Assembly (NCBI GenBank): GCA_037951105.1
Contig: JBAMJV010000850.1
Location: forward strand, 43,485-107,484
Length of the DNA: 64,000 nt
Reading direction: 5' to 3'
From: Echinarachnius parma
Lineage: Eukaryota > Echinodermata > Echinoidea > Clypeasteroida > Echinarachniidae
Within the stretch, counting starts at the first letter, position 1. Each line of letters opens with the position of its first letter. The translations under genes were made by a program, and so were the position numbers. This document shows, piece by piece, positions 141-61,800 of the stretch. The notes under the pieces were generated by a model. The model searched no databases, was not told the origin of the DNA, and saw only the letters and a list, made by a program, of their open reading frames with translations.

Positions 141-800
141 ATGCATACCTGTCCACTGTGTCACAAAATGTTCAGCAGACAGTATAATTTGAAAAGACAC
201 ACTGAAACTATCCATGCAGAAGAGGGGTCTGAGATGGATCATAATGAACATGACATGTACAATGTAGGTTGTCATAACAAACGGTTTACCGAGGATACAA
301 TGATCAATGCGAGAGCCATGGAAAGATCCGATAGCGAGTCTATCGAAAGTGAGCACAACGATTCTGATGGAGACGATAACTCGTCACAAAGTGAAGGAGA
401 AACTGAATGCAGTTCTGATCTAGAAGACAATACAGCTTTTCGAGACTGGTTGGACGACGCCAAAGAAACAACAAATGACTCATGGACTGCGAAATATGAA
501 AAATATATACAAGAGGGCTTGAGTGAAGAGAACGCAAGGGAGAAAGCCAATATAAAAACATTGTGGGCGGTCAAAAGATACTTTTTTGAGACCTATAAAG
601 ATTTTCTTTTCAGTTATTTTCATCTTAAAGATGACGTAACTCATGAAGAAGTAGTTGATGAAGTCCAAGGGAAGATAGAAAAAGGCATGGGTCTTGATAA
701 AGCCTTGCGCAGAGTATTACCTAAACATCATTTTAAATTTAATGCATTGTTCCATCAAACTAATGATCTAGAGGATGATGGTGAAGATGATAGTGATTGA
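141..800 (+). CDS. Hypothetical protein with one N-terminal C2H2 zinc finger
   Basis: Intronless frame of 219 aa. Residues 4-25 form one classical C2H2 finger (C4, C7, then 12 residues, H20, 4 residues, H25), so nucleic-acid binding is likely. Residues about 60-110 are strongly acidic and Ser/Asp/Glu-rich. Residues about 110-205 look helical and contain W, Y and charged residues (WTAKYEKYIQEGLSEENARE). The C-terminus is again acidic. The start is the first Met, immediately before the finger. Possible polyadenylation signals AATAAA lie at 988-993 and 1012-1017, which supports a short 3' UTR. I recall similar short one-finger acidic proteins as multicopy families in cnidarians and lancelets, but cannot verify that here; they may be mobile-element associated. 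Function unknown. The upstream 140 bases show no recognisable promoter element. Confidence 0.6.
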   Translation: MHTCPLCHKMFSRQYNLKRHTETIHAEEGSEMDHNEHDMYNVGCHNKRFTEDTMINARAMERSDSESIESEHNDSDGDDNSSQSEGETECSSDLEDNTAFRDWLDDAKETTNDSWTAKYEKYIQEGLSEENAREKANIKTLWAVKRYFFETYKDFLFSYFHLKDDVTHEEVVDEVQGKIEKGMGLDKALRRVLPKHHFKFNALFHQTNDLEDDGEDDSD

Positions 801-4109: not shown

Positions 4110-4905
4110 ACCTTTTCTCCAATAATACCAATATGCTAAAAACATAAAATGTATATTATGTTGTTCTATCATTTTAAACACCATTATGTTCTTGCATTGG
4201 CAAGAACTGCCTTTAAAGGAAACCAAATCCTTTCATACAAGTCCTGCTGTGATAAAAGAAGGATATCCACCCTACCAATTCACCCACAAATTATCTAACA
4301 TAGTTATTTCATAAGAGGACAATTTGCGACTTGCTGGGTGCATCTACAGCTCTTGAATCGCGCTTCGCACCGCGCCATGATTTTGATCTTCGCCGAATCG
4401 ATGACGTGTAAAAGGACCTTCCCTAATATGGTCAGGTCTTCAAGACAAGAAAGACTTCATTTATCGAATTAAAAAAAAAAATTTTCCGAACAAAATAGCA
4501 TGTTTTGATTGATAAATATAATAATTATGCAAAATAACTTATTTGTAAATTTTATTGACATATTTCTCGAAAAGAATACGTATACAAAGCATCAGGTTTA
4601 CCTTCTTTTTCGAACGAGACTGAATGGTCTTGAGATTTTTTGTAAACAACTTTGACGTACGCGTACGCGTCCGTAATTTGGTGTAGTATAAAACATTTCT
4701 CATTATATTATATAATTTTGTCAATAAAAAATGATTGAATAAAGTTATGATATTTGCATTAATTCTTGACTCGTATCTATTTTTTCCGTTGTGTATTTAT
4801 GATTTTAAAAAAAGCTTGGTAAATTATAATACAATATTTTGAATAAAAGTAACGATCATGCATGCAAACGTTGCTGATTTGGCTTCTGCTGTACGACCGT
4901 GTATA
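4110..4905. other. AT-rich intergenic, nothing recognised
   Basis: No gene or clear repeat. It contains a short palindrome (GTACGCGTACGC) near 4660. Confidence 0.5.
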
Positions 4906-5063: not shown

Positions 5064-6424
5064 ATGGAGTCGGCTAATGGGCAAGCCCAAGGTGGAGTTG
5101 AGCCGTATAACTTTGAACCGATGTTCACCCCCGCGGAGATAGCAGCGAGAACGGAGGAGCGAGAGAGCGATTCGGATGGGGATGAGGACCCACCACCGCC
5201 GCCTGAAGATCGCATGCAGAATGACGGCTGGTGCGAGTGTGGAAGTTGTCGGCCCGTTGATAGAGCCATTCAGTGCCGTTGCTGCAGGGAGGTGCCGAAC
5301 TGTTCTCGGATGATGGACAGGGACAATGTCGGTTGTATTACCCTACATAAAGACTTTAACAAGATATGCCTGGAGCCAGCAGTTCTCAGGACTGCTCTTG
5401 TAGCTAGATTAGATTGCCGTGGTGGACATCGCGGAAGATTGCCGGAGGAACTTGATTCCGAGTAAGTAAGATTAAGACTATGATTCTATGAATTATGATC
5501 CGACTCATATTTACTTTCAAATTCAATCACTGTGTTTTACTTTTAGAACTTGTAGCTGTTTAAAATTAGGGATAATAGTAATAAGCCAAATGCACAATTA
5601 CGTTACTTTCTTTGACGTCGTAGTCTTGCTTAGAGTTAGTCTTAATTATCTCGAGCAGTCAAAGTAACAGAGTCTAGCTTGAAAGTTGGTTACAAATTTT
5701 GGCGCTAAATCAGAAAATGCATTTTCACACGCCCTAACCATAACCCTAACCTAACCAGGCATATAGTATACATACAAAATTTCGCAGGAACATGTTTGTA
5801 GATGTGCGATAAGGAGTTATATCCCCTTCAAAATCAAACAGATTGTTTTATTTTGTTTACTTGTAGTTGTACTACACACTAAAACCCCCATGTACGTCGG
5901 CGCTACACAAATTACTACTATGAGAAGAATGATAACTTACCTCAATCGAGTTTTATCGCTGCAATAATGACGGCCACCATGCTCATCGCAAACTCATCGG
6001 CATCGCACATGTGCTATGAGATGCGGATGAGTTGACGTTGAGTGGTACGTGGTGGCCGCCTTGTAAAATTTTGATTTTTAATGAACTGGTATATCAATGC
6101 ATCGATGAGGTTCATGATATGATAAGTTTTATCGGACCAATTTGCTTGTCTAGATCAGTAATCTATGAGCTAATTGAAATTATTATTTTTCTTTTGTTAT
6201 TTTCATATATTTCATAATGCAGGTCGTACCGTTATTGTGCCTACCGGTTGTTTACGTACTGGGTACATGATCTTCTGGGGAGACGAAACCGGAGGGTGAT
6301 CCCTGCATGCGCCGTTCTCCGCATCCGCGCCACTTTCCCAGCTGCTGAAGGACGCAACTACGTGGGATTTCGATATCTACCTGATGGCGAAGTGTTGGAA
6401 GTGCCGGAGGAATTTGCCATCTAG
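5064..6424 (+). CDS. P2X7 C-terminal (ballast) domain-like protein, two exons
   Basis: Exon 1 is 5064-5461 and exon 2 is 6223-6424. The intron of 761 bp has donor GA|GTAAGT and acceptor ATGCAG|GT and splits one Glu codon. The product is 199 aa. After an acidic, Pro-rich N-terminus (about residues 1-55) comes a cysteine-rich core (WCECGSC near 57, then QCRCC, then single Cys). It is followed by the helical stretch YRLFTYWVHDLLGRRNRRV and VLRIRATFP.AEG.NYVGF. This order matches the intracellular zinc/GDP-binding ballast domain of the P2X7 receptor (P2RX7_C family), here without the ion channel. Stand-alone versions are known in many invertebrates; their function is unclear. The intron carries a dispersed repeat (5732-6035). 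Confidence 0.8.
5732..6035 (+). repeat. Dispersed repeat, copy 1 (intronic)
   Basis: Shares ordered blocks with 19740-20155: AGGAACATGTTTGTAGATGT, ACCCCCATGT, GAATGATAACTTAC and CGCTGCAATAATGACGGCCA. Its left edge has a short degenerate telomere-like run (CCCTAACCATAACCCTAACC) at 5732-5751. Confidence 0.6.
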
Positions 6425-12984: not shown

Positions 12985-15720
12985 GGGCGCACCAAGGCAC
13001 ATCCAAGTCCTCTTGGATAACTGCGTTCAGGTAAACGTTCAGTGGTCATCAACACAAGTTCATGGCGTGACAGGCAGGTGGGTCGCACCAAGGCAAGATG
13101 GGATTATCCAAGTTTTCTCGGATAACTGCGTTCAGGTAAACGTTCAGTGGTCATCAACACAAGTTCATGGCGTGACAGGCAGGTGGGTCGCACCAAGGCA
13201 AGATGGTATTATCAAAGTTTTCTCGGATAACTGCATTCAGGTAAACGTTCAGTGGTCATCAACACAAGTTCATGGCGTGACAGGCAGGTGGGTCGCACCA
13301 AGGCATGATGGGATTATCCAAGTTTTCTCGGATAACTGCATTCAGGTAAACGTTCAGTGGTCATCAACACAAGTTCATGGCGTGACAGGCAGGTGGGTCG
13401 CACCAAGGCATGATGGTATTATCCAAGTTTTCTCGGATAACTGCGTTCAGGTTAACGTTCGGTGGTCAGTGACACGACAGTTCATGACGTGACAGGCAGG
13501 TGGGTCGCACCAAGGCAAGATGGGATTATCCAAGTACTCTCTGATAACTGCGTTCAGGTACGAGACACAAAAGTAACATCAAGGCAAGATGGTATTATCC
13601 AAGACATCGGATAACTGCGTTCCAACAGACTTTTTTGTGGCAAGAGATACGAACGTTCATGGCATGATGAGTAGGTGGGTCGCACCAAGGAAGGATGGCA
13701 TTATCCAAGTCCACTCGGATAACTGCGTTCAGGTAAACGTTCGATGGTCATTGACAAAAGTTCATGGCGTGACAGGTAGGTGGATATTACCAAGGCAAGA
13801 AGCGATTATCCAAGTCCTCTCGGATAACTGCGTTCAGGTAAACGTTCAGTGGTCATCAACACAAGTTCATGGCGTGACAAGCAGGTGGGTCGCACCAAGG
13901 CAAGATGGGATTATCCAAGTCCTCTTGAATAGCTGCGTTCAGGTAAACGTTCTGTGGTTATAGACACCAAGGCAAAATTCGTAGATGTGTCGCACAAAGG
14001 CAAGATTGCATTATCCGGATAGCAGTATTTTGGTGGTTTTACAGTGGTACGAGACACAACAGTTACACCAAGGCAAGATGGCATTATCCAAGTCCTCGGA
14101 TAATTGCGTTCGGGCAGACTTTTTTTGTGGCAAGAGATACGAATGTTCATGGCATGATGAGTAGGTGGGTCGCACCAAGGAAGGATGGCATTATCCAAGT
14201 CCACTCGGATAACTGCGTTCAGGTAAACGTTCGATGGTCATTGACAAAAGTTCATGGCGTGACAGGTAGGTGGATATTACCAAGGCAAGAAGCGATTATC
14301 CAAGTCCTCTCGGATAACTGCGTTCAGGTAAACGTTCAGTGGTCATCAACACAAGTTCATGGCGTGACAAGCAGGTGGGTCGCACCAAGGCAAGATGGGA
14401 TTATCCAAGTCCTCTTGAATAGCTGCGTTCAGGTAAACGTTCTGTGGTTATAGACACCAAGGCAAAATTCGTAGATGTGTCGCACAAAGGCAAGATTGCA
14501 TTATCCGGATAGCAGTATTTTGGTGGTTTTACAGTGGTACGAGACACAACAGTTACACCAAGGCAAGATGGCATTATCCAAGTCCTCGGATAATTGCGTT
14601 CGGGCAGACTTTTTTTGTGGCAAGAGATACGAATGTTCATGGCATGATGAGTAGGTGGGTCGCACCAAGGCAGGGTGGCATTATCTCTCGGATAATTGCG
14701 TTCGGGCAGACTTTTTTGTGGCAAGAGATACGAATGTTCATGGCATGATTGCGTTCAGGTAAACGTTCGATAGTCAATGACACAAGTTCATTGCATGATG
14801 GGTTGGTGGGTCACACCAAGGCAAGATGGCATTATCCATGTCTTCTCAGATAACTGCGTTCAGGTAAACGTTCGATGGTCATTGACAAAAGTTCATGGCG
14901 TGACAGGTAGGTGGATCTTACCAAGGCAAGAAGCGATTATCCAAGTCCTCTCGGATAACTGCGTTCAGGTAAACGTTCAGTGGTCATCAACACAAGTTCA
15001 TGGCGTGACAGGCAGGTGGGTCGCACCAAGGCAAGATGGGATCATCCAAGTTCTCTCTGATAACTGCGTTCAGGTACGAGAACCAAGTTACATCAAGGCA
15101 AGATGGTATTATCCAAGACATCGAATAACTGCGTTCCAACAGACTTTTTTGTGGCAAGAGATATAAATGTTCATGGCATGATGAGTAGGTGGGTCGCACC
15201 AAGGAAGGATGGCATTATCCAAGTCCACTCGGATAACTGCGTTCAGGTAAACGTTTGGTGATCATTGACAAAAGTTCATAGCGTGTCAGGTAGGTGGATC
15301 GCACCAAGGCAAGAAGAGATTATCCAAGTCCTCTCGGATAACTGCGTTCAGGTAAACGTTCGGTGGTCATCAACACAAGTTCATGGCGTTACAGGCAGGT
15401 GGGTCGCACCAAGGCAAGATGGGATTATCCAAGTTTTCTCGGATAACTGCGTTCAGGTAAACGTTCAGTGGTCATCAACACAAGTTCATGGCGTGACAAG
15501 CAGGTGGGTCGCACCAAGGCAAGATGGGATTATCCAAGTTTTCTTGGATAACTGCGTTCAGGTAAACGTTCGATAGTCAATGACACAAGTTCATTGCATG
15601 ATGAGTAGGTGGGTCACACCAAGGCAAGATGGCATTATCCATGTCTTCTCAGATAACTGCGTTCAGGTAAACGTTCCGGGATACACCAAGGCAAGATCGG
15701 TAGACGGGTCGCACCAAGGC
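12985..15720 (+). repeat. 105-bp satellite array with higher-order structure
   Basis: The monomer includes GGATAACTGCGTTCAGGTAA, TCAACACAAGTTCATGGCGT and GTGGGTCGCACCAAGGCAAG. In the clean left part the CTGCGTTCAG word recurs at 13021, 13126, 13231 and onward, a 105-bp period. About 13620-14110 is repeated at about 14110-14600 with a 490-bp offset, including truncated monomers carrying GACTTTTTTGTGGCAAGAGA, so a higher-order unit exists. Because 105 is a multiple of 3, several frames stay open on both strands and encode 35-aa repeats. The right edge decays by about 15800, directly beside the stop codon of the THAP transposase gene. Confidence 0.85.
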
Positions 15721-15973: not shown

Positions 15974-18900
15974 TTACTGGGCAAATCTGGAAGTTGCTTG
16001 AGCATCTAGTTCTTCTTTCGATGGTCTTGGGATTCTTGCGATGTTGGAAGGAAGATCAGGCAACTGGGGTCGTTCTGGCTGGAATTCACCTGTCTTGACC
16101 AGAAGGAGAGAGAAGAGGATGTCCCAGAGGTAGCCATACTCCTTCCCTTCGGGCACTTTCCTCCTGACCCATTCTTTCGTAGCCTTGGAGAAGACGTATT
16201 TGTATCGCAAGTCTCCCATCTTGCCTGTGCCTCTCCTTGGGTGGTTGATGATGGCCTGTTTCCGCCCAACATTCATGTTGTGATCCAGTACCGCCAGTTG
16301 TGCTCTCATTTGCATGCCGGGGTAGAAGAAGTGCTGGCGTTTCGGGCAGTACTTCAGATACATGCCGTGGTAATTCTCTAGAGCTCCCGTATGACATGCC
16401 TTGGTGAGCTGTTTAAGATCGCCGACGAGTCTCTTGTCGAAGAGGACTTGCTGTATCGCCTCGTGGGCCTTTGACCCTGGCCTCAACCACTTTCTTGCCG
16501 ATGTCTGCTCTTCTGTGAGGGGTGGGTGAGCACATTGGTGGAACTTGTCTGCAGAATTCCATGAATGAATATTGCAGACATGCTGGCAGATTGACTGTAT
16601 CATTTCCACCAGCATCGTTGGGTCCTCCTGGCAGTTCTGCGCCGACCACCAGATGTGGTTTGATATGGCCTTTATCCACGGGGCGAGATCTTGTGCATCC
16701 TTGGTCTTGGCCTTGGCAGTGAGGCGTTTGACGATGGACTTCGCCAAATGCCAGACGTCGAACTGGTGATCGATGACGCCATATTCCTCCCGCATCATCT
16801 TCTTGATGCTGCCATGGCGATCTGTGGCAAACACCTTCACATCCACCCCTGCCTCAATCATGGAGTCCAACGCCTTCTTGCAGCCCACCTTCTCCATCCC
16901 AACCGAGCTTGTGGCTTGCGTCACCTGAACCAATTCCATTGCAAGGATCTTTTGGCTGGCCATGTCCATGCAGGTGTAAGTGCAATATTTGGCACTATAG
17001 CCCGGCGAATCACAGCGCCCGTCTCCACATGTCTGTACTGGGCGTCCCTCCACAGCACCACGGCAGTTATTCACCTCGTCGACAAAGTAGGCGTTCACTG
17101 TCGGTAGAATCATCGCCTCCTGAATGCTATTAAATGTCGTCAGTGAGATGAACTCCAGGTTCAAGAGTGAGGAAAAGAATGCCATCTTCTCGTGGGTCAA
17201 TCCTGACAAAACAACAGCGCCAGCAGCCAGTATGTTGCCCACAGGCTGTCTCCCAATCACTGGCTGTGAAGTCCATTTGGTTACTTCCCGGCCGCACACA
17301 CAGGTAACGACAACAGTCAACATAGACCCCGTTGTAAAGTCCCTTAACTCGGCAATATGGCCATCAGTGCATGCCGGACACTTTAGCCGATAGAATAACT
17401 CCCTGAGGCAGCTCTCAAATACCAGAAGTTTTCTTTCTTTACAAAGATCAACTTCTTCTGGGTCTTCAACATCCGATTCATCAGTGGATTCAGATTCCTC
17501 GGATTCTTGGTAGGAAGGGTCACTGGAATTTGACATGGTTGAAGGGCTCGATGGTGATGTATCAGTCTCCATCTCCTCAGACCTGGGTGACGGAGGCGAC
17601 AAGGGAGGCTCAGGTGATGGGGGAGGTGCAATGAACTGGTGAGGCTCAGGTGACTTGGGAGGGGAGGACTCCATAGGAGAAGGCTGGAAAGGCAGCAGTT
17701 GACCAGGCACTGCATCCCATGCGGGTAGAGCTGTTGCAGGCGATGCCGAAACTGGAGGTGCATGCAGTGATGCCGGAACGGGATGTGCTTGGACGGTGAA
17801 TGGCCTCGAGATGGGAAGCATAGTCTGGGCATACTGGTGTTCGACATTTACGTATGTGAAGTCCTCCGGTATTTGTGTCCCACTTTCTGCAGTACTCCTT
17901 CCACCAGAGATGAAGGTTTGGGTAGAGAAATCGGCAAAGCGGACACCAGTTTCCTCTTCCTCCAAGTCCTCTTTCTGAAATAATGAAAAGGAAAAAAAAC
18001 ACGAACATTTTTCATTACTCTCATTGCTCTTCCATGAACTATAACGACTAGATGGATCTTCGACTGCGAACAGGCAAAAGTGATGCCTATGCAATTGTGC
18101 AGTTAATAATATATCATCAGTCTAAATTAACCTAAACCGAGACAATTATGTAACTTTTACTTTGATTACATTCAATCACATTTGGCGCTATATAAATCAC
18201 AATTATTATTTTCATTAAAGAAGTTTAATATATACACTACAAGTTAGAGAGCATGTCATTCATTTTTTTATAAACTTCAAGTGTATAAATACATCTGGCC
18301 ATTGCTTTGTAACCAAATTTAAAATAACAATGGATGGGTTCATCTTTCAGTAGTGATGTGGCAAAGTCAGGGTATTTTTCATATTTCTAATGTCCGTGAT
18401 TCTAGAGGCCCCCTTATCATTATATTATCTTTTTGTTTCTAGTACTTCAAGAAGTTCACTCTTTGGGCATTTTAAAGAAATCCCCCCGCCCCATATATTT
18501 TCTTCACAGGAAGACCACCATGCCACGAGTCATGAATACATCAAATGTTATCAAGATTGTATTTTAAGGGTTTTTTGCTTAATTGATATTCAACTGAACT
18601 GACTTTTAAAAATTACAAGAACGTCATTTGTTTTTTAATCAAAATCGATTCTTGTAAAAAGATGTTAAAAATAACATACCTTTGCCTTAGACGATTTCTT
18701 ATGCTTTCGTCTCTTCCTCTTGTTCACCTGCTTCCTAGAAGACATCAGACATGATGACTGAAGACGGGATGACTGTAGGTAAAGACAAAGGGCACCTTTT
18801 TACATTGGCACTCACTTTCAGAGTAATATTTCTTGTAAAAATACTTCATGAAAATATCCTGTAGCTATGTGAATTGTAACCCATTTAATGGCATGATGAT

Positions 18901-21900
18901 AAGAAAGTACATAAAAAACAAACTAGATTACAGTAAATCAAGTTCACCATACATCTTATTTACCATAATGAAATAAAACAAGTCAATACATGTATTTACA
19001 AATCACGATGTTCAGTACTACATGTATGTTTAATTCAATATTAATTCGTCCCTTACAGATGTCAACGCATGCAAATCACAATTGTGCCAATATTCAAATT
19101 AATTTGTTTTCTTCAGATTATTACAGTATGCCAATGAAATGAAAATGAAATAAATTACCAATTTAAGTTCTGATTTGTATCCATCTTCAATTCAATATAG
19201 ATCACAAGCTCAATTTATTTCACACAGCTCACACATCTGGGTAGACACATATAATATTTGTTACATCATCTTGATCAACTTACTGGTATGTCCGCATCTT
19301 TCTTTGGCACCTCTTCAGAAAGCTGGTCCTCCATGTCTCTGTCTTCTGGTACTTCTGTTGAGTCCACAGTGACCTGCATTTTGAAATTTGGAAAAATTGC
19401 AATGTTACACACGTGCCCATCAATTAATGAGAAATAAAATATATACCAAGACTGCTTATTTTTCATCTATTTTTTCTATTTTTAATTTTAGGGGAGGGGG
19501 CTGACAATCAAAGTAGCAAAAATTACCTTTTGGTGAAATCAGGCAGGTAAAAAAAATAAAAAATAAAAATAAGAGACTAATTAACATTAAGAAAAGCTGA
19601 ACAAAAATATAACATACAGTCTCTCGATATCAGTACAAATGTTTGCAATCATGATCAATGAAAGTTTCTTTCTTTCTTCCAGTGCAAATATATTGCTCAT
19701 GCATCAAGTATTCAGAGTCTAACCTAACCAGACTCTGTGCGTAGCACAGAGCTTGGCATATACACCGCTCAAAATCTCGTAGGAACATGTTTGTAGATGT
19801 GGGATGAGGTGTTTTAAACCCTGTAAGCAGATTATTTTTTTTATTTTTTTTGAGTTTTAATACACCTTGAAACCCCCATGTTTGTGTGCGCTACATAAAA
19901 TTACTATAAAAGAATGATAACTTACTTCAAATTGATAATTCATTTTGATCGGTCTTTGTAAGAATCCGGCTTTTTTTTTATCGCTGCAATAATGACGGCC
20001 ACCAAACTCATCGCAAACATCGGCATCACACAGCCCTTGCGATGCCGATGAGTTTGCGACGAGTACGGTGGTCGTCATTATTGCAGCGATAAAAAAAAAG
20101 CCGGATTCTTACAAGGACCGATCAAAATGAATTATCAATTTGAAGTAAGTTATCATGCTTTTCACAGTAATTTAATCAGGTATTACTTACTGGTTCACCC
20201 ATGTGTTCTTCAATTAGCAGCTCGACAGCAGGTGGGTCCATCTCCAAGCCCTCCACGACCTCCATATCTGCTGGTCCCTCAAGTGACTCAACTGTGGACT
20301 TCTTGAAATAAAAGCAGAAAATATGTACTCAAACTTGTAACAAGTAAAAGGTACATTTGAGACTTGGTACAGTACAGGTCATCTTCCTTCCAAGACACTT
20401 AATTTGTTCTTTTTATCTTTAAATTCTATTTGACAGTTCAGTGAATATGCATACAAAATCAATCCCTTTCTTATGCTCTTATATTAGTAAAAATTAATTA
20501 TAATACACTTCTTCCAAAATATTTCACATGAAGTTTAAATCATTATTTCAACAAAATGCCATACTTTGTATTGCAGACATCGTAGCATCAATATTATCGC
20601 TAATTATGATGAATTAAATTCAGTAAAATGCCATGTCGTGGAATATGCAGATTTGATCAAATGATACTTAATAAATGACAATTAAAAAATTTAATTAAAC
20701 ACCTAATAAATATATCAACAATCATTGCAAGTTTACCTCATCCTCAATGGCAAGTGATGTGCTTGTTGATGGCCCACTTTCTTCAAGAACAGACCGGATG
20801 TACTAAAAAATAAAATGAGAAAAATAAAACATGAACAATTATCTTACTTATTTCCTGGCCAATGACAAATTTCCTGGTCAATCTGATGTGAAATACAATT
20901 CTCTCCAATTGATTAAAATTTTGAAATCATATCGGACACCATCCAGGAAATATCATGGAAAGTGGGATATACAGTGAAGCCAAAAATTATTAGGACACCC
21001 TAACAAACAAGGAAATCATGATATTCATTTAAAAAAAGACTTTATTCACAGACTGAATCATAAAAGGTGACAAACTTCCAATTTAGGAAATATGAAAATT
21101 TAATATAACTATGGCCTATCGTTCCTTTTGTTTTCATTTGTTTATATACTGAGGTTATTAAGTCATGTTCAGTAATTTGGTGGAGAGCATGCTCAGGAGG
21201 CTTCGAGCTGCCATGGGAGGACCAACAAGGTATTAAGCAGGACTTAAAACTGGCTGAGTTACCATAAACTAACATACTTCCAAATAACCTCAAAACATGA
21301 AAACTGAGAACAATAGGAACAATAGGCCATTGAAATATGATTTTTTATATTTCCTCAATTGGAAATTTGTCACTTTTAAGATTCGGTCTTTGGCTACACT
21401 GTATGTCAACCCTGGCCCTGGTGTATAATCATCAAAGCAACGTATGGAGAGCAGCAGCTGGAGCACAGTGCAACGCTCCCCCCCCCCCCCCCCCCCCCAA
21501 ATAAATGGTAAAGGTATACAATTGGAAAAAATAATAATCAGATAACATGATTTTAAGCAATCTGTAACATGTTATCACTATTTGATTTGTGATACTGATA
21601 GATCACAATTTGTTGAATGATCGTAGCCAACAAAAATACTTATTGTCAAATTGGATGTCATCGCTGATATCGTTTCTGCCTTTGGATTTCTTTGAAATTT
21701 TGGTAAAGGTATACTATCGCACACCCTCCTGGCATGTCAGGAGTATGCATCTGATTCATTTGAAATTCACAACAATTGAGGATCCAGTTATGATTGACAA
21801 TATCAAAGCAATCCAGACGGAAACTCATGATATCGGCTTTGACATCCGATGCAAATTGGTATATTATATCTAATTGTGATCGAACACAAACTATTATAAC

Positions 21901-23424
21901 ATGTTACAAATAAGTCTTCTTATTATTCATGTTTACCATTATTATTTTCTTTTTGTAAATGTATTCATAAATTATGCATTGATAAAATTATTCCAATTTC
22001 ACAAAAAAATGGGTAAAGACTAAAGGTATAAACTATAATGCATGTTATGATAGTTGTGATCGATCACAATGAATAAGCTATAGTACGATCGTTTACCAAT
22101 TAGCATCGGATATCATCGACTACAATAGCTACATCAATTTTATATCATGAGTTTCCATTTCTGGATTGCTTTGAAATTGTAGTCACTTGTCAATCATTAT
22201 CGGATCCTCAAATTGGTCTGAATTTCAACTGAAGCGGACGCATACTTTTGACATGCCAGGCCAGGGGGTTGTGCAATGCCAATAGTATACCAAAATGGTA
22301 AAGGTATACTTAACCGAAATTTTGCTCACTTGTCTACCATTATTATATTTCTTTTTTTGAAATTCCATCTGAATCTACTTTTGAAATGGCAGCAAGGCCC
22401 AGCCAGGCCAGAGCCCAGACCTGTGCACTTTTTGAACTTTATTGCAGCCTTTTCTTAGTGAGTGCGCAGTAGAAAAATACATTTAAAATTGAATGTAAAC
22501 AAACAATATATTTTGCGATGTGGTTGCAAATGTTTTGACAACCATTGACAGTCGACGAAACTGCAAACCAACCATCAATGGCATGCACATCGCCCGCCTG
22601 TGAGCCCCCTGCCGAGAGCGGCAGCGCAGCCCGGTCGCGATCGCCGCGGCCGAGAGATAGCTCAAGCATATCATTGCCACGATTACCAAAAAAAGGTCGA
22701 TTATAGCAGCGAGAAATGAACGGCTAATTCTTCAGTACGAAAACGACATCGTAATGAACAGGATGAAAATATATTTTCCTACGGAAATTTTGTCTTGATG
22801 AGTTGCAAATCAACGCTAAACTGTTCAAATCACAGAAAATAAGAATTGTTTTGTAGTCCCTAACTGACTCCGACTAGCGATTGAGTTTGCCATTACTCAC
22901 GTTGCGCGCGCGCGCTGCATGCTAGCATATTATAGTACGTTGTAACCAGTAGCACGCACGGTATAGATGTACACAAACATATGACTGTCTTTACGAATTA
23001 TCAACAAAAAACACAACGAAATATTTGATCAATATAAGCAATTCATCCACAAACAAAATGAACTAACCTGTCTTGCAGATGCCTTAGCAAGTCTTTCCTC
23101 TGTCGATCTCCTCGCTTTGGGGGGTGGTCGATGAGAGAAAACGGATGGAACAACCCCTTCTTTCAGGATCCGTCTCACCTTTGTCCCCGGCATGAGTCTC
23201 GCACGCATGTCCTCCACGTAATCGGAGGGAAGAAAATGATCACTACAAATTACATTATTTGGGTTAAATTTGTAGGAATTCACCCTAAATTTCTCCACCT
23301 TAATGGCAGCCAACCATTTCCTACACAATTCCGGGCTCTTGTCTGGATTTGGAATGGGGTGGAACGCTTTTCCTGACCCTTTTCCGCTTCGGTTCGAACA
23401 CGAGAACGCCTGGCAAAGCACCAT
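15974..23424 (-). CDS. THAP-domain Kolobok-type DDE transposase, six exons
   Basis: Exons on the minus strand: 23424-23068, 20802-20737, 20301-20191, 19373-19284, 18772-18680, 17974-15974. All introns are GT-AG and phase 0; the product is about 905 aa with no stop. Exon 1 is a THAP zinc finger starting at its Met (MVLCQAFSC, CSDHF, VVPSVF), a DNA-binding C2CH module. Exons 2-4 are acidic linkers. Exon 5 is a basic, nuclear-localisation-like stretch (KRKRRKHKK). Exon 6 has a Pro/Ser-rich acidic region, a CPAC...CVCG zinc ribbon near residue 438, then catalytic-type blocks GDGRCDSPGYSAKY (near 556), ATDRHGSI with HQFDVWH (near 624-647) and LENYHGMYLKY.PKRQHF (near 772). The blocks match fish and invertebrate Kolobok-type transposases as I recall them; a P-element (THAP9) transposase is less likely. 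No AATAAA seen 3'; the satellite follows. Confidence 0.85.
19914..20155. repeat. Long hairpin (about 110-bp arms) in intron 4
   Basis: The left arm carries AAATTGATAATTCATTTTGA, GTAAGAATCCGGC and CGCTGCAATAATGACGGCCA. The right arm is the near-perfect reverse complement, with only a few unpaired bases at the centre near 20030. It is the end of the dispersed repeat that starts near 19740, whose first copy is at 5732-6035. Confidence 0.8.
20972..21401 (+). mobile_element. Non-autonomous Tc1/mariner-like element
   Basis: Starts CAGTGAAGCCAAAAATTATT, ends TCTTTGGCTACACTG, flanked by TA at 20970 and 21402. Inner inverted blocks (AAAAGGTGACAAACTTCC and its counterpart near 21350-21380) support a long inverted repeat. 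No transposase frame remains. It lies in intron 1 of the THAP gene. Confidence 0.6.
21478..22320. mobile_element. Poly-C run and foldback element in intron 1
   Basis: 21478-21498 is a pure C run. The segment around 21727-21865 (CCTGGCATGTCAGGAGTATG, GAGGATCC, GCAATCCAGA, AACTCATGATAT) returns inverted at about 22093-22262 (ATATCATGAGTTTCCATT, TCTGGATTGCTTTG, GGATCCTCAA, TGACATGCCAGG). The copies are diverged. GGTAAAGGTATA recurs near 21507, 21701 and 22295. No coding content. Confidence 0.6.
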
Positions 23425-23673
23425 GTTGAGGCATGGCGCGAGACACTGCAATTTTGCGCGCGCCACACACAGGTCCGAGAATGGGTCATTCTTCGATAAG
23501 TGTATATTTTCGACCATCGTGAGGTCGTGAAAATCAAAACTATTTCTCCACTTTCTTTCTGTGTGTTTAATATATGTTAACATCTGTAGATTAGGGAAAT
23601 ATTGTTTGGCGCGATCTTTAATGGGGCTATGTAATATTTTGGGGGGTTTTATTAACATGTACACTGTTAATGC

Positions 23674-24823
23674 GTCATCTCCGTCACGACATTTTTGCAC
23701 AACTAGATCGTCGCATTTTAACTGAAGAACATAATTCACTTCTTATTCAATCTTTGTTTGGAAAGAAAGGGTGACTGTGAAAAGAAAAAAAAAAACATTG
23801 GTCAACCATAATCACATTTTTTTCTCTAGAGCCACCATTTATACTTGCCTTGCTGAATAAATAGTGAATTTTGCCAAATAGTTTTGCTTTCAATCAGTGT
23901 GATGAAATTTTCTCAGGAAATTAGGATGAAGAGAGGTACATGATTACGAGTAAATAGATCGCTAAAAATACCAATACAAATATTTTTTACCAGAGTATAA
24001 TCTTTGTTGAAATGTATGCATTTGAACTCAGCGTGACGGAGATGACTGAAGCGTGACGGAAATGACTGAAGCGTGTATAAGAATACATTATAATCACATG
24101 TTATATAATAATCTAAAATTCATGCAAACTAAGCTTTGTCATAGAATATTTGTCAATTTTAAACAACACTGTGTGTCAATTAACCGAGTTGACAATCCAA
24201 CTCAAATTCATCATCTCAGTCACAAAAGAGCCGTGACGGAGATGACGCGTGACGGAGATGACTATCAGACACATTTAAAGCGCCGATAGCTAATGGCAAT
24301 GTATTCAATACAAATGAGCGATAGTGTTGTATGGTTGTTCCGTGGGCACATTCATACAAATGATTAGAAATTCAATCTAACATCTTTATCTAGCTAATAT
24401 CAATCGTTCGGAGATGATCATCGTCATCTCCGTCACAAAAAAAACGTGACGGAGATGATGCGTGACGGAGATGACTTTCAGACACATTTAAATCGCTGAT
24501 AGCTTATAGCAATGTATGCAATACAAATAAGCGATAGTTTTGTATAGTTGTTCCGCGGGCACATTCATACAAATGATTAGAAATTCAATCTAATATCTTT
24601 ATCTAGCTAATATAAAGCGTTCGGAGATGACGCTTAATAAAGGTACGGACCTGGTTTTTGACAAAGATCTCAAAAAAATAATGTTACTTACCTATAGACC
24701 GGGGGAAAAACGTGTCTCTTCTTTCTACTACCTAGTCACCCGACATGTTACCACCACGATCACTCAAATTTAGCATATTTTTGTACCGTAGATGACGGAC
24801 TCAAAATGCGTGACGGAGATGAC
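23674..24823. promoter_or_regulatory. Array of 14-bp motif GTGACGGAGATGAC
   Basis: Plus-strand copies: 24033-24046, 24053-24066 (one mismatch), 24233-24246, 24249-24262, 24446-24459 (last base T), 24462-24475, 24810-24823. Minus-strand copies: 23674-23687, 24423-24436. Partial copies: near 24211 and 24619. Part of the array lies in a 213-bp-offset duplication (about 24249-24418 and 24462-24630, sharing AGACACATTTAAA and ACAAATGATTAGAAATTCAA). The nearest copy is 250 bp upstream of the THAP gene start. Candidate promoter or transposase-binding array. Confidence 0.6.
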
Positions 24824-27080
24824 GCAAAATATCGGGACACACAAAACAGATTCCTTTTTTTTTTTTTTTTTTTTAATCGTTGCATGTGTGCGTATTTAAT
24901 CTTGGTATTCGTAGTCAACTCACAAAATTGAATTTATTAAGGTATATTAGGACAAAAAATATGAATCTTTTTTGAAATGCTATATTATGATATTTTTACA
25001 TGATGCCATCGTGACATGCGAGTTTGTGGGGGGTGGAACATTTAAAAAAATAATTAAAAAAAAAGTATAAGAGTTATCACTTTACTTTTTTTTTTTTTTT
25101 TGATTTTTGACTTACTTGTAAGTCAGCACAAAGAGGTAACACAAAAAAAGCTTTAATTTTTTTTCTATGCGACACCAAAGTAGCGGGACACAAAACTATA
25201 CACTTATCGAAGAATGACCCGAATACGTCACGGATGGAGGGGATACCCTCGAATCAGAGCGAACATGGCGGGCCCCTAGCTGTGCTAGCATCTCACTTAT
25301 ATGATTTTTTTCGAAAATCGTTGTGAGCTCGTCACTTGGCCAAATTTGTCGATCGATATATCAAATTAAAGGGGGAAATGTGAATAGTAAGATGGTGCTA
25401 ATGAAATGCCTACATTTTGGTTTGCTTTAACAGGTTTTTTAAAATCATTTTTGTTAGCAAAGAAACAAACAATGAAAACTGTGTTTTTGTATGTTTTCAT
25501 GTGAATGATACACGGATTTTAATGCATAATTTGTACAATGTATTATATACAGTTATGAATATAATCAAACATAAACACATCATCCATGCGTATCGAAATA
25601 CCAATCAATTTAACTCCATAATCGTAAGTCAAATGGTAAGCCAATCGTTTCCCGCGTACAAATCGATATCATTAATTCTGTAAGTATATACGGTGTTCCT
25701 TTTTCTTGTGTTAAACTGAACATTTCAGCCCCCAAAATTGAGTCCTCCTCCCCATCCAACATTGTATGTATAGGGGTGACCAGTGACCACCCCATGCCCC
25801 ACCCCAGCATCACTCCAAAACACGCATACTTTAGACATATACTATGCTGAAATGTAGAAACAAATAAGATATATTACGGCATAAACGTATATACATATAA
25901 TTTCTTTTGCAATATGATATAATTATGTATTTTGTTTATCATTACCTCATTTTGTATTATTACATCATACACACTACCAGCGTGTATACCCGAGTACTGT
26001 CGATAAATAATGATAATCAATGGCATTTCTAATATCTCACATTATAAATATGATATGTTACATATATTACAGATAATAAAACTTTGTTAGTATATTATTA
26101 CAATTTCCATTACAAAGAGATTCATTCGTAGACGTATAATAAACTATTGTCAAAATTAATGTGCCTGATATCGGCGTTCTTAATTTAAATTTTCCGCATT
26201 TTGTCATCAGCATCACATCAATTTGATATCATCTAATAATTTGTAATTGTTATATTTTAAATATATTTGTAATTAATTAATGAATATGCATACTTATCCA
26301 GATAATTGCATTTTCTAAGCTGTTATTTAATTGTCATCAATTCAAAATGATTAAATTCATCATTATCTTCTACATCATCACCATCATCACCAACACATGA
26401 TTTTCTTTATGAAATTAAAGGTAGAAAATACATACCAGCATGACCAATATAAATATAATCCTTTCTTTTATATCAATTAAACTAAACAAACTGCATAGGA
26501 ATATTGTAACCTGAAATCGCATGGCTTGCAACTCATATATACATTATAAATATCACGTCAATATAAATTACTGAAAATAAATATATATCTCACAAAGCAT
26601 AATAGGTACATCAACCTGAACGTTAAAACACACAATTGCATAACAAAAAGTTTGCATTGTTATTGTCTCTATTCGCTACCATGTTGAATGCACTTTCATG
26701 TAGTGCAACTTAGGGCAATTTTGAATACTAACAGTCGCACGTATTCCAAAGTTGTGACGTAGTCATGTTTGTTTTCTAACCCGCAAGTAAGCTATGTCTT
26801 TAACTGAAATAAGGATATAAACGTGATACGATCGTGAATGTGTCGTGTTGAACTCAAGTTGTGAATAAGTCGTGCCTAACTTGTCTCTAAAAGTGGTGTC
26901 TAAAAAGTGTTCTAAAATCGCGATTAAGTCACGACGATTTGTCTTATCCCGAGAGGGGTTTCAAGCAATTTTAAAGGTGTAACATTGTTATTCAAGGATA
27001 AAAGAATACAGGATGCAATATAATGATAAATACACATAGATATAAAGCATTCATTATGTTGTCAATTATATACATACATT
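24824..27080. other. AT-rich intergenic, no gene recognised
   Basis: Poly-T runs near 24857-24874 and 25085-25100. A small CpG-richer patch with an AACATGGCGG word (YY1-like) lies near 25263. Remaining sequence is AT-rich with ATATAT-type simple stretches. Nothing coding is supported. Confidence 0.5.
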
Positions 27081-28717: not shown

Positions 28718-28814
28718 ATATGTATTACTACGGAAAATCATTAATGCATGTGCACCTTTTCATGTATAGTAGAGTAAACGGCAAAAAACACATTTATTAC
28801 CCCCTTCCATTTAA

Positions 28815-29081
28815 AGGGATAGTCGAGTATTTCTCAAACTTAGCTTAAGTAACCAAAACCATGAAAACCTGCACCATAATAGTTATAACTTCACCATGCT
28901 CGAAAAATATACACATAACACAGTTACATACGACTAGGTAAAACCCCTGTTATCATTCAAAAAGTGCTGTTACAACTCAAGAGGGCGCTCTCTAAAAAAA
29001 AAATAGTTTTAACCAGTTTTTCATTATCTCACAATTTTTTTTTTTGTGAAGTGCCCCCTATACTAACACTCAACTATCCCT
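28815..29081 (+). mobile_element. TTAA-flanked T2/Kolobok-like MITE, copy 1
   Basis: TTAA at 28811-28814 and 29082-29085 flanks AGGGATAGTCGAGTATT...ACTCAACTATCCCT. The body has AGTAACCAAAACC, TATAACTTCACCATGCTCGA, ATCATTCAAAAAG and CAACTCAAGAGGGCGCTCTC. TTAA duplication plus AGGG ends is the T2/Kolobok signature described in Xenopus. Other copies: 40941, 45250, 54013, 54484 and 63115. Confidence 0.75.
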
Positions 29082-29189
29082 TTAACTTTGCTCCCTAGCC
29101 ATCCCTAGTCATCACTTCAAAATATTGGTTCATTTAACAACTGTAGCCTACATGGTGAACAACATTTCATACACAGCGTGGGCGTTGTT

Positions 29190-34561: not shown

Positions 34562-34610
34562 CTTGGCGTCAGATGTTAATTTATAGAAGAACACTTGGTT
34601 AGACTTTTGT

Positions 34611-35200
34611 AGAAGGAAATGGTAATCGATGAAAAGTTTCAAGCGGGATTTGAACCCGTGTTCTCTTGATCGATGAACGTCGGTTCCGGAACTCTGACCA
34701 ACGTTACGGGCAATTGACGTGTCTTGACCCGACAAACCAATGTCCAGTTAAAGTTGGAACTTATGAGACTGTTTACTCTGTCACGCGTTCCCGGCTTATC
34801 TTAGGTGAACCGAATATTACTTATCAACACTTGAAGGCATTTAAACGTAGTTCGGTACCTAGTTTTGGCGCGAATAACGTGGAAGGTTATCTACTCCACA
34901 CCAGTAGAAGGAAATGGTAATCGATGAAAAGTTTCAAGCGGGATTTGAACCCGTGTTCTCTTGATCGATGAACGTCGGTTCCGGAACTCTGACCAACGTT
35001 ACGGGCAATTGACGTGTCTTGACCCGACAAACCAATGTCCAGTTAAAGTTGGAACTTATGAGACTGTTTACTCTGTCACGCGTTCCCGGCTTATCTTAGG
35101 TGAACCGAATATTACTTATCAACACTTGAAGGCATTTAAACGTAGTTCGGTACCTAGTTTTGGCGCGAATAACGTGGAAGGTTATCTACTCCACACCAGT
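34611..35200. repeat. 295-bp perfect tandem duplication with tRNA-like stretch
   Basis: 34611-34905 and 34906-35200 appear identical. On the minus strand each unit carries a B-box-like word, GGTTCAAATCC, in a T-arm-like stem-loop (ACGGG TTCAAAT CCCGC), and a D-arm-like TTGGTCAGAG upstream. No acceptor stem can be paired, so this is a tRNA-derived repeat at best. The body (GTTGGAACTTATGAG, GGTACCTAGTTTTGGCGC) recurs diverged at 39005-39520. It sits upstream of the TNFR-like start at 34561. Confidence 0.8.
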
Positions 35201-43243: not shown

Positions 43244-43821
43244 AATTGTGTGAGCCCCCCAATCAGTCTGACCACACTACGCCACTGTGTACATGGCTGC
43301 CCATGTTTACATTGCATTGAATTTGCAAACTTCAAATTTGAACATTCCGAGAATGAAACTCTTTCTCTGAATATTTGACCTTCACTGAAAAATGACATGA
43401 CTTAAAATAACAACAATTTAACAAACTTTTGCAGAAAATATTTCAGAATGAGAAATAAATGGTAAAATTTCAAAATGATTGGCTAGTATAGGCTTATACA
43501 AAATTCATGTATGCATACTTATAAATAATAAAAATTGTGTGAGCCCCCCAATCAGTCTGACCACACTACGCCACTGTGTACATGGCTGCCCATGTTTACA
43601 TTGCATTGAATTTGCAAACTTCAAATTTGAACATTCCGAGAATGAAACTCTTTCTCTGAATATTTGACCTTCACTGAAAAATGACATGACTTAAAATAAC
43701 AAAAATTTAACAAACTTTTGCAGAAAATATTTCAGAATGAGAAATAAATGGTAAAATTTCAAAATGATTGGCTAGTATAGGCTGATACAAAATTCATGTA
43801 TGCATACTTATAAATAATAAT
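43244..43821 (+). repeat. 289-bp recent tandem duplication
   Basis: 43244-43532 and 43533-43821 differ at only a few bases (for example AACAACAAT against AACAAAAAT and GGCTTAT against GGCTGAT). Starts AATTGTGTGAGCCCCCCAAT. No gene. Confidence 0.85.
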
Positions 43822-44517
43822 AATATATTTGATTTATATAGCGCCTAATATGATTGATAATCATCTCTAAGTGTTTTACAATGATATTATTACCCCGGTC
43901 ATCGGAGTACTTGATTACAATGTAAAATTCTTGTGCAGCATTAAGAGATTGAAAGTGAAACTATTTAGCTGATAATTAATCCAATTTGTGATTCACTGAA
44001 AAAAATGACATTAAAATGTCACAAAGTTCAACAAACTTTTGCTGGAAGATTTATTATCGTCACTTCGGTAAAAAAAAAAATTGGTGAAAAACAAAGCAGA
44101 ATTTTCATGTAACATGGACAAAAGTGCAAATACTGGGCTAATAAAGACTTGTGCAACATTCAGGAGACTGAAAGTTTTTCTTTGATAAAACAATATATGC
44201 TCTGCACTGAAAATCACAATAGATTATTATGATGTTATTTGCAGAGAAAACTCCACCAAGACAATTCTCAGGATTTTAACTGGGGAAAACAAGCAAAAGC
44301 TTAGCTGGTTGGGCTGACATAGACTAAGCATTATTCAGAGAACGAAAATATTTTTTTGATGAAGCAATATTTGGTAAAGATGGCATTGAACATGGTTTGT
44401 ATTCTATTATAAAGGTAAACAAACTCTTGCTGCCTAATCTTGGTGGTATTCAGAGAACCACCAAACAAAGTAGGACTCATCAGGGGGTAAGAGCAAATGA
44501 ACAGAGTAGCGAAATGT

Positions 44518-45249: not shown

Positions 45250-45420
45250 TTTGACTCTTGAGTTGTAACGGCTCTTTTTGAATGATAACAGGAGTTTTAC
45301 TTTGTCGTTTGTAATTGTGTATACTTTTCGAGCATGGTGGAGTTATAACTATTAGTTTGTACCGTAATGGTGCAGGTTTTGGTTACTAAAGTTAAGTTTG
45401 ACCAATACTCAACTATCCCT
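45250..45420 (-). mobile_element. T2/Kolobok-like MITE fragment, copy 3
   Basis: Reverse orientation. Ends ACCAATACTCAACTATCCCT followed by TTAA (45421-45424). Body AGTTGTAACGGCTC, CGAGCATGGTGGAGTTATAA. Its other terminus is lost. Confidence 0.65.
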
Positions 45421-45544
45421 TTAATTATGAATTGTGGACATTGAACTTTACTCACTATTTAAATGCCTAGACATAATAATAATAATTATAATTAATTGCA
45501 CAATCAATTAATATGGCATATCATTAATCTTACTATCATATTTA

Positions 45545-57258: not shown

Positions 57259-57507
57259 CGAAATGGTCATGACAGAATTGCGAAGTTGACGTTGCATGGT
57301 CTAGCTCTGACTTGGTTTTGATATATTATATGTATATGTAGTGCATTTAAACTATTTTGGATACACACTTGAGGAATAATCACGTGGCGTTAAGGTAAGC
57401 ACTCATTTGTGGGCTCTTATTTGAATATAAATTGTAAATTTGTACTAACATTCCTATATAAGTTTTGATTCGTTGTATACTCGTATTGAATTTCCCGCCA
57501 AAACAAC

Positions 57508-58881
57508 ATGGCGGCCTCCATGGGGCAGGGCGTGCACCCAATGGATATAGGTGTGGAAGAACAGGGAGACTTTATTGAAGTAAAACGAAAGTCAAAAAGA
57601 CCCCGACCCGGCAGTGTAGACATTGAAACACTGAATTGTGAAGATACTGATACGGAATATGTTGAGGCTTTACCTGAGACGGTCCTCCAAGATTTGAAGG
57701 TACTGATAGTGCCAATAGATAGACAGAAGAGTTTGATTTCGATTAATCCTATGGTGATTGCAAAAACTCTAGAAAAATGCGTGGGAAACACCCACTTGAA
57801 ACATGTGAAGCACGTTCGAAACGGTATTCTTGTAATTTGTCAAAACATCAAGCAGTATAACGACCTAAAGAGGATTGACGAGATCGGAAGTACTCCCGTT
57901 AAAATTAAGGAAAGGGTAAATTACACTAAAGGAATAATACATGGAGTATCCATTGAGTTGCAAGAAGAGGATATCCTCAATAGTTTGGGAAAAGATAGAG
58001 TGGTGAAGGTAGAAAGGTTGAAAAAGAAAAATGGAAAAGGTGGAGAAAATGTACATGGAAAGGAGAAGAAAGAAGAACCATTAAGATCGGTGGTGTTGTA
58101 CTTTGACTCGTCAACACTTCCCGACTCAGTATCGATATACTATGAGCGATTCAGGGTAAAGCAATTTATACCTAATGTATCTAGGTGCTTTAAGTGCCAA
58201 CGCTACGGCCATGTTGCGGCGGCATGTAGGGGAAAAGAAAGATGTGTAAGATGCGGGGGGGAGCACCCCTTTGATCAGTGCCCCAAAACACAATTGTATT
58301 GTGTTAATTGTAAAGGCGCACATTCAGCCGCCTACGGAGGGTGTACAGCGCTAAAACAGGCTAAAGAAATTTAAAAATGTAAAGTCCATGAAAAGATTTC
58401 GTACGCTCAAGCGGTCAAAGTCGTGAAAGAAAAGTCACAATCTGGATCTGGAGCAGAAAGTATTCCTATAAAAAGTCAAGATAAAGCACCAGTTAATGTG
58501 AATAGAGAAAGAGACATGCACAATACTGAGTCTAATGCACCTCAACAAAGTGTACAAAAGAATAAAGAAGAGGTCGTTGGTAAAAGAAATGAAGCACACA
58601 TGAATGGTGGACTTGTAAATAATAAAACTGTGGAAACAGAAATAACAAAGTTGCTTGATGAACCTGGTACAAAGTTTAAATCACAAGATGTATCAAGGAA
58701 TTTTATGGCCAATGCTACAAATGAAGCTATAATCGCTTTTTTGATTCATATTCTTGTTTTATTGAAGGAAACAAAAGAGATTCCTATAATGGTGAAAAAA
58801 ATCTGTGAAACGGCACAAATGATTTTTGGTATACATTTCCCAGATGTGAGTATGCAAATTGTCAATGGACTGCTATTATAA
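57508..58881 (+). pseudogene. LINE ORF1, gag-like protein, one internal stop
   Basis: One frame of 457 codons, broken only by TAA at 58372-58374. The N-terminal part includes a likely RRM-type fold (about residues 60-150). Three zinc knuckles follow: CFKCQRYGHVAAAC, CVRCGGEHPFDQC and CVNCKGAHSAAYGGC (about 227-280). After the stop the frame resumes with the typical YAQAVK segment and a Lys/Ser/Glu-rich tail. The product would bind element RNA. The single nonsense change suggests a young copy. Confidence 0.8.
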
Positions 58882-61800
58882 GATACTTTTATTGATGCTC
58901 TCAATCCTACAATGGAATGCTCAGGGGATGAGAAGCCATGGGGATGAACTAGTACAATATTTATTTGTATGTAATAAACAAATTGATATTATTTGTATAC
59001 AAGAAACATGGTTCAATGATGAAAATGTGTTTTATATTCCGAATTATACATGTAATTATCGGAATAGGATAACGGGCCAATCACGAGGTGGTTGTGCTAT
59101 ATATGTGCATTCTTCTATTGTAAGTAGTAGTGCAACGATACATAAAGAATTGGAAATCCAAAGTCTAGTGATACACTTAGAAAATAAGTTTATGACTTTG
59201 GTAAATTTTTATAACCCTTGCAAAAGGCTAACAAAGGAAACTTTGAAAGCATTGTTTTATGAAAAAAGGAATGAACGTGTTTTGATTTTAGGTGATTTTA
59301 ATGCTCACAATAAATTATGGAGAAGCAAAGTAACTGATAGAAACGGTCGTATTGTTGAAGATTTTATTAATGAAAATAATTTGGTAATTTTGAATGATGG
59401 TCAAAGTACAAGATTAGATAGTCATACAGGAAAAACATCATGCTTAGATTTAACTTTAGCTTCAGCACACTTTGCAAGCAAAGCTACTTGGCAAGTATTG
59501 AATGATACTATGGGTAGTGACCACTTCCCTATTTTAACTTATTTTTGTGAAAATGAGAATGAAAAAAGAAATAATGACTCCTATTTCTGGTCATTTAATA
59601 AGATTGATTGGGACATTTTTAAAGAAAAATGTAATGAAAAATTTGAAAACTTTAGTAGTGATAAAGATATTGATTTTGTATATGATTCATATATTTGTTC
59701 ACTTGTTGATATATTAAATCAACTTGCAAGATGTAATAATAAAAGTAAACGGAACCCAGTAATATGGTGGAATAAATTATGCTCAGATGTTATTAAAGAA
59801 AGGAATCGATTGAAAAATAAAGTTGTGAAATATATGCTACCACAATATTTACAGGATTATAAAGAGAAAAAAGCTGAGGCACAAAGAATTATTAGGCAAG
59901 CGAAAATAGACTTTTGGGAGAAATATTGTGCCACCATTAATAGATTCACTCCTCTTTCGGACATATGGAAGAAGATTAAGATCATTAATGGTGACTCAAA
60001 ACAAAATGATAAACAAAAACACATAGTGTTGGAAAAGGATAAGAGAAAAATTGTGAAAGATGAAGAAGTAGCAGAGGAATTCTCTCAATATTTTGAAAAA
60101 ATTAGTGAAGAATCCTTTGTAGACCCTGACTCTCTTCAACAAATGGAAAAGAAAATGTATAAGTTGTATTGTGAAGAGGGTCAATTAGATAGTACATTTG
60201 TACTTGATGAGGATTTTGTCATGTTTGAGCTCGAACGAGCACTACATGCATGTAATCGCTCATGCCCGGGACCAGACGGTTTACCATATATAATATATCA
60301 AAATCTCCCATTAACAGTTAAACAAATTATGTTAGATATTATAAATAAAATGTGGAATCTAAGCGTAATACCACTAGAGTGTAAAACAACAATATTGATA
60401 CCAATATTGAAAAAAGATAAAGACAAAGAATCTGTTTTATCATACCGTCCAATCGCACTCTCTTCGTGCTTTTTGAAGATTTTTGAACGAATGTTGAATA
60501 AAAGATTGGAATGGTTTATTGAAAAACATAATATTCTTCCTTCATTTTTAAGTGGTTTTCGTAAAGGAAGAAGCACTCAGGATTGTATTGTTTATTTAGA
60601 AAATGATATTCAAACGGCATTTGGAAATAAAGAAAATACACTAGGGATATTTTTGGATATTGAAAAGGCATATGATAGGCTCTGGAATGATGGACTCCTT
60701 TTTAAATTGTATGAAATAGGACTGAAAGGAAAAACGTTTAAATTTATTTATAATTTTGTGAAAAATCGCCCATTCCAGGTTCGTGTAGGAAAGGCTATGT
60801 CAAAGAGGAGATATTTAAGGAATGGACTTCCACAGGGAAGTATACTTAGTCCCACTCTTTTTAATTTAATGTTATATGATATTGTTCAAGAAAAAATGGT
60901 AAAATTGTCACTCTATGCAGACGACTGTATTTGTTGGAAATCAGGAAAAGACATTGAAGAGATTCGTGTTACAATGCAACATTATTTGCATCATTTGAAT
61001 GCATGGTTTTTGAAATGGGGATTCAAAATTTCAACGACTAAAACCGTAAAGATATTGTTCTCTTATAGTAAGAAAAATATCGATATAAGTTTAAATGGAG
61101 AAAACATAAAAGATAAAGAAGAGGTTAAATTTTTGGGTTTGATTTTTGATAAGAAACTTACGTGGAGATCCCACATTAATGATATTATGGAAAGATGTAA
61201 ACACAAAATAAATATTTTGAAAAAATTAACAGGAACAAAATGGGGCACAAACACGAAATCTCTTTTGATAATATATCGAGCTCTCATAAGATCTTTGATT
61301 GATTATGGCTGCCAAGCTTACGATTCGGCATCTCAAAGTTTAAAAAATGCTTTGAACTCGATACAATATCAATGTCTTAAGATTTGTACAGGTGCCCTTT
61401 CAGGCACTTCGCTATAAACATTGTAAACAGAGACATGTGAAATGCCTCTGGATTTACGGAGAAAATTATTTTGTTCTCGCTATAAAGTAAAGATAGAACA
61501 AACTATAGACCATCCTTTGAATGAGGTTATACAGAATTGTCATAATGACAATTTTGAAAATAAATTACGCAAACCTTTTTGTTATCGACTATTGGAGTTG
61601 GTTACAGTAGATAAAGATGTTATACAAAAACGTGCATCACTGACAAATCCTCCTTGGCACATAATGATACCAAATGTTTGTATGGATTTAAAAGAAAGTG
61701 TTGATAAAAAAGATAATATTCATAGTATAAAATTTGAAACATTAGAATATATTAATATGAAATGGTCTAGAGAGTTGCATATATTTACGGATGGTTCGAA

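Follow-up and report, generated by a model that had tools for sequence, protein, structure and literature searches.

A probable Kolobok transposase gene with a KolX-like neighbor in the echinoid Echinarachnius parma

When a long transposase gene stands undamaged in an animal genome, has it been taken over by the host, or does it still belong to a transposon? The question is raised by a 64,000-nucleotide stretch of the Echinarachnius parma genome (the window; GenBank assembly GCA_037951105.1, contig JBAMJV010000850.1, positions 43,485 to 107,484 of the forward strand), in which a sequence-only reading had recognized a six-exon THAP-Kolobok transposase gene at window positions 15974-23424 and had seen in it the pattern of a domesticated transposase. 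After our analysis, the question is less about a solitary tamed transposase than about a complete two-gene Kolobok. The locus very probably consists of a Kolobok transposase gene with a KolX-like neighbor, and we marginally favor the interpretation that it is a Kolobok of the Kol0 type, with two open genes, which is mobile or was so until recently, or which could serve as a helper. This two-gene interpretation is drawn from the identity of the neighbor, because a KolX gene is the reported second gene of Kol0.

The neighboring gene, which the sequence-only reading had not noticed, lies at 5064-6424 on the plus strand, has one intron and encodes an open frame of 199 amino acids. Exon 1 (5064-5461) encodes the P2X7 ballast domain with the WCECGSC and CC cysteines, and exon 2 with the stop codon (6223-6424) is indicated by the matches of the joined protein and by splice scores. 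The joined protein matches P2RX7_C, the P2X7 intracellular domain, with E=1.5e-15 and P2X7 structures with E=2.8e-9, and its WCxCxxC cluster and IPxC...IRxxFP pattern are close to the ballast consensus of Rump et al. (PMC7016195). Kojima & Bao (2022, PMC9587614) describe a Kolobok lineage, Kol0, whose elements encode KolX in addition to a transposase, and they note a resemblance between KolX and the P2X7 ballast. The KolX-like gene and the transposase gene are convergent, with their stop codons 9.5 kb apart, and probably belong to one element. The first AATAAA or ATTAAA past the KolX-like stop is 2.0 kb away, and neither motif is present within 3 kb past the transposase stop, together a small mark against expression.

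The transposase gene is composed of six minus-strand exons within 23424-15974, which join into 905 amino acids and a stop codon with no internal stop. Exon 1 (23068-23424) contributes the ATG and the THAP DNA-binding domain; it is followed by exon 2 (20737-20802; 22 residues of linker), exon 3 (20191-20301; 37 residues of acidic linker), exon 4 (19284-19373; 30 residues of acidic linker), exon 5 (18680-18772; a basic stretch of 31 residues) and exon 6 (15974-17974), which is open for 666 residues and encodes a serine- and proline-rich linker, the DDE core and the stop. All exons are in phase 0, with lengths divisible by three, and all five introns are GT-AG, the weakest acceptor being that of exon 4 (score -0.1). 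When the 5,092-nt gap was scanned for internal exons in phase 0, the four small exons and one nested variant were returned, with none on the antisense strand and 0.29 per 5,093 nt in the sampled rest of the window. The scan thresholds were taken from the called exons themselves, so that the scan serves as a control and not as an independent test, and its splice weights were not fitted to E. parma. The four small exons exceed chance expectation. The GC content of the exons is 44-53% versus 27-37% in the introns. The six phase-0 GT-AG exons and the roughly 905 uninterrupted residues of the sequence-only reading are borne out by the exon join and the scan, and so are its acidic linkers (exons 2-4) and basic stretch (exon 5).

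Identification of the transposase as a Kolobok begins at the N-terminus, where a protein search of the joined exons recovered THAP in exon 1: it matches PF05485 in Pfam (E=1.8e-14) and the THAP1 structure 2ko0 in a search of PDB sequences (E=9.2e-10). The THAP residues are located at C4, C9, C60 and H63, at P23/25, W37 and F64, and in VVPSVF at 91-96. An N-terminal THAP domain is usual, but not universal, in the Kolobok superfamily. Exon 6 contains, in order, D557 (GDGRCDSPG), D624 (ATDRHG), D645xxH648, H704/H709/C720/H722 and E772 (ALENYHG). We take D557 and E772 to be catalytic residues from the motif order and their customary context, and the H2CH zinc finger between DxxH and E (H704, H709, C720 and H722) is identified by order and not by reference spacing. 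The NCBIfam IS256 transposase model NF033543 matches residues 600-677, which span D624 to DxxH, with E=6.9e-5, a weak match whose 22 bits fall short of the curated cut-off of 150. Kolobok DDE transposases are described as having C/DxxH and, ahead of the final E, a zinc finger (PMC9587614), which is named H2CH in PMC6004289, and the order of DDE, DxxH and H2CH found here is the order reported for Kolobok in those two papers.

No Pfam model describes exon 6, for which a chance DUF630 match (E=0.22) is the only hit, with none for the DDE part up to E=10, and against PDB sequences exon 6 gave two chance-level matches (E of 0.17 and 0.32). The DDE region and a degenerate motif pattern had no relatives among the viral contigs and prokaryote genomes scanned, nor did the KolX-like protein among the viral contigs, which is expected of an animal gene. 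Pfam has transposase models for the P element and for the Harbinger/ISL2EU type, and both identities were dropped because there was no match to Pfam transposase models. The THAP-Kolobok assignment is supported by the THAP match, the ordered DDE, DxxH and H2CH motifs and the weak IS256 match, and above all by the KolX-like neighbor.

Does the pair of genes have the ends of a transposon? Kolobok inserts at TTAA and has 5'-RR ends (PMC9587614), and all ten full-length Xenopus Kolobok elements end in AG (PMC6004289). The ends need not adjoin the gene, because a full-length Xenopus element can be as long as 13.9 kb with a coding sequence of 2.3 kb (PMC6004289). The sequence-only reading had seen no TTAA-flanked inverted ends around the transposase gene, which holds only in part: a search 16 kb to either side gave one weak TTAA/AG pair that brackets the gene and that is not separable from chance. 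Its uncertain left end, at 4213-4228 on the plus strand, is TTAA followed by AGGAAACCAAAT, and its equally uncertain right end, at 25415-25430 on the minus strand, is TTAA followed inwards by AGCAAACCAAAA. The two match at 10 of 12 bases and bracket both genes, implying an element of 21,210 bp in which the left candidate end sits 11.8 kb past the transposase stop codon. This is the best AG-ended TTAA pair among the 51 that flank the transposase and the 34 that flank both genes, the next having 8 and 7 matches, and it is a candidate for the ends of the element.

In the whole window, AG follows TTAA at 22 sites on one strand and 27 on the other, which gives 594 opposite-strand pairs. Six of these have at least 10 matches: four in one repeat family (28811, 29085, 40937 and 45424), the pair 52175/52302, whose sites are 128 bp apart, and 4213/25430. 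Among same-strand pairs, none of which can be ends, 6/582 have at least 10 matches (two in the repeat family, one in the tandem duplication 34748/35043 and three among the identical sites 46924/47506/51679). In 5,000 trials, random 30-mers equaled the candidate pair 0.98% of the time, a figure not yet corrected for its selection from 34-51 pairs, which weighs against it. The presence in the window of other TTAA-flanked, AG-ended elements was counted in favor of a transposon.

The repeat family is TTAA-flanked, has AGGGATAGTTGAGT ends and resembles a non-autonomous Kolobok; its copies lie at 28811-29085 (both ends), from 40937 onwards (a clear left end) and at about 45250-45424 (a clear right end). 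Its ends do not match the candidate pair.

The sequence directly 5' of the transposase gene contains ten copies of GTGACGGAGATGAC at 23674-24823, in both orientations and with at most two mismatches, although part of this count is due to a 213-bp tandem duplication. An eleventh match, with two mismatches, is found in exon 6 at 17587, and the expectation for the window is 0.13; on the KolX side there is no match. The cluster may represent binding sites, in the form of subterminal repeats or an operator. The transposase 5' leader (23483-23510) and 25193-25220 share an inverted repeat of 28 nt at 96% identity. The 9.5 kb between the genes holds diverged repeats and a 105-bp minisatellite, which lies just beyond the transposase 3' end at about 13001-15676, has a higher-order period of 490 bp and is open in one plus-strand frame for stretches of up to 190 amino acids.

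Starting from the gene models, the THAP domain, the motif set and the KolX-like partner, all of which are directly observed, we propose that the locus is probably one element of about 21 kb, enlarged by introns, the minisatellite and nested insertions. By analogy with the family, the THAP domain would bind the ends of the element, the RNase H-like DDE core would excise it and join it to TTAA sites, and KolX would be a zinc-binding cofactor or regulator from the same element. Among Xenopus Kolobok genes, all motifs are kept in 15/23 repetitive genes as against 5/24 genes in orthologous domesticated groups (PMC6004289). At this locus the intact motifs and the retained KolX lean toward a transposon, and the retention of a second element gene suggests a whole element.

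Several observations weigh against a Kol0-type element that is or recently was mobile. The 9.5-kb gene spacing and the 21 kb total exceed the sizes reported for the ten Xenopus elements (6.8-13.9 kb; PMC6004289). An unrestricted end scan of 10,496 TTAA pairs up to 16 kb either side of the transposase, comparing 12, 16, 20 or 25 bases, found a 10/12 match among 12-mers once in the real pairs and three times in the control, in which the partner was reversed but not complemented. No similarity runs inwards from the candidate ends (score of 20 versus a random median of 19), and the five shared 10-mers inside them fall within the 1-16 of 22 control blocks. The 64-kb window contains no second copy of the transposase or the KolX-like gene. 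An AlphaFold prediction of the DDE region, made without relatives, reached a predicted local distance difference test score (pLDDT) of 36.7 and did not confirm the RNase H fold. Finally, both frames are open despite old-looking intron insertions, which fits long selection at the locus.

This last point depends on the age of the insertions. As the sequence-only reading had noted, the transposase introns have been invaded by other elements: hairpin insertions lie in intron 1 at 21047-21392 (arms 15.6% mismatched) and 21708-22291 (arms 9.7% mismatched, plus 57 gap columns), and a hairpin element lies in intron 3 at 19700-20176 (arms 6.6% mismatched), its hairpin placed at about 19895-20176. If the arms were identical at insertion, these mismatches correspond to some 3-8% change per site in each arm; the argument is conditional, since the arms could already have differed when inserted. 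In simulations of neutral change, which count stops only and no frameshifts, the transposase frame remained open in 30% of runs at 1% change per site, in 3% of 600 at 3% and in 1/600 at 5%, and a 600-nt frame of the size of the KolX-like gene was open in 44% at 3%. The intron 3 hairpin element has a relative, about 69% identical, at 5741-6090 in the KolX intron; these are its only two detectable copies in the window, each in an intron of a Kolobok gene, which may be chance.

The low survival of simulated transposase frames is one point in favor of an unlikely alternative, in which the transposase and KolX were captured together and, after loss of the ends, were both maintained as convergent host genes. 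RAG1 and RAG2, which stayed together, offer a likeness. Also in its favor, both frames and all six splice-site pairs are intact despite the aged intron insertions, and no ends are proven. Against it, the catalytic motifs are complete, unlike those of 19/24 domesticated Xenopus genes (PMC6004289), and the age argument presumes that the hairpin arms were identical when inserted. Open frames together with aged insertions also fit a transposon lineage whose working copies carry introns along.

Domestication of the transposase alone, which was the sequence-only reading, would make the KolX-like gene an independent neighbor or a leftover, and we consider it improbable. It draws on the open 905-residue frame and on the apparent domestication of 39/62 Xenopus Kolobok transposases (PMC6004289). 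However, the open KolX-like gene 9.5 kb off corresponds to the reported partner of Kol0 (PMC9587614), and a leftover KolX should decay, although, in the simulations, chance alone keeps a frame of its size open for a fair time. With the motifs complete and KolX kept, the domesticated pattern is not established, and what continues to speak for it is that both frames are open despite the old-looking insertions. About as improbable is a recently silenced transposon copy, immobile, unselected and too young to have acquired stops, which would accord with the simulated survival of frames at 1% change, the unclear ends and the lack of AATAAA or ATTAAA within 3 kb past the transposase stop, but which conflicts with all splice sites and two frames being intact and with nested insertions that look older, if the hairpin arms started alike.

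Under the Kol0-type interpretation that we favor, the locus bears on the role of KolX. The P2X7 ballast domain is proposed to derive from KolX (PMC9587614), to which the Kolobok text consulted assigns no function in transposition. Whether KolX is required could be tested on a locus such as this one, in which both genes are open and predicted to be spliced. Rump et al. (PMC7016195) described two markers that, from sponge to sea urchin, are linked to genes with the ballast domain. Were one of them a Kolobok transposase, the "ancestral synteny" would be the gene content of a transposon, which we offer as an idea only. If co-domestication were instead true, the host would have captured both genes of a transposon, as in the case of RAG1/RAG2 but from another superfamily, the transposase would be catalytically complete, and the clustered GTGACGGAGATGAC sites would be the transposase gene's own operator.

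The remainder of the window contains further features. A long interspersed nuclear element lies at 57490-62146 on the plus strand, with a CCHC-knuckle open reading frame (57490-58371; weak match), an endonuclease and reverse transcriptase open reading frame (58850-61417; RVT_1, E=6.7e-39) and a further one reaching 62146. At the window edge, 141-797 (plus strand) is an open frame of 219 amino acids that has a single C2H2 finger and is acidic in its middle part. Near-perfect tandem duplications are found at 34609-35200 (295-bp units, 100% match) and 43244-43824 (289 bp, 98%). A scan of the window at Rfam gathering thresholds gave no matches.

Comparison with known systems places the locus among four relatives. 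KolobokP (PMC9587614) belongs to the same superfamily but has a His-Me nuclease where the locus has a KolX-like partner; a KolobokP identity was dropped, since no pair of terminal direct repeats of KolobokP length (about 450 or 660 bp) surrounds the gene in a self-comparison of the window that lists matches of at least 40 nt. The locus resembles the active and domesticated XKol transposases of Xenopus (PMC6004289) in its THAP domain with C2CH, P/W/F and an AVPTIF-like box, its DDE residues and its H2CH finger. Full-length XKol elements have TTAA targets and AG ends, as does the candidate pair here. In contrast, each gene gathered from Xenopus was a single frame of about 2.1-2.5 kb, whereas here 905 amino acids are spread over six exons. 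With P2X7 and Nanor proteins (PMC7016195, PMC9587614) the KolX-like protein has the ballast domain and its cysteines in common, but it is without the P2X channel part and sits beside a transposase. The Kol0 lineage, represented by Kolobok-1_XT (PMC9587614), combines a KolX protein with a DDE transposase in which C/DxxH and a zinc finger precede the final E, and this is the combination found here. The E. parma locus may differ from it in that its genes have five and one introns, and differs in that they lie 9.5 kb apart between unproven ends.

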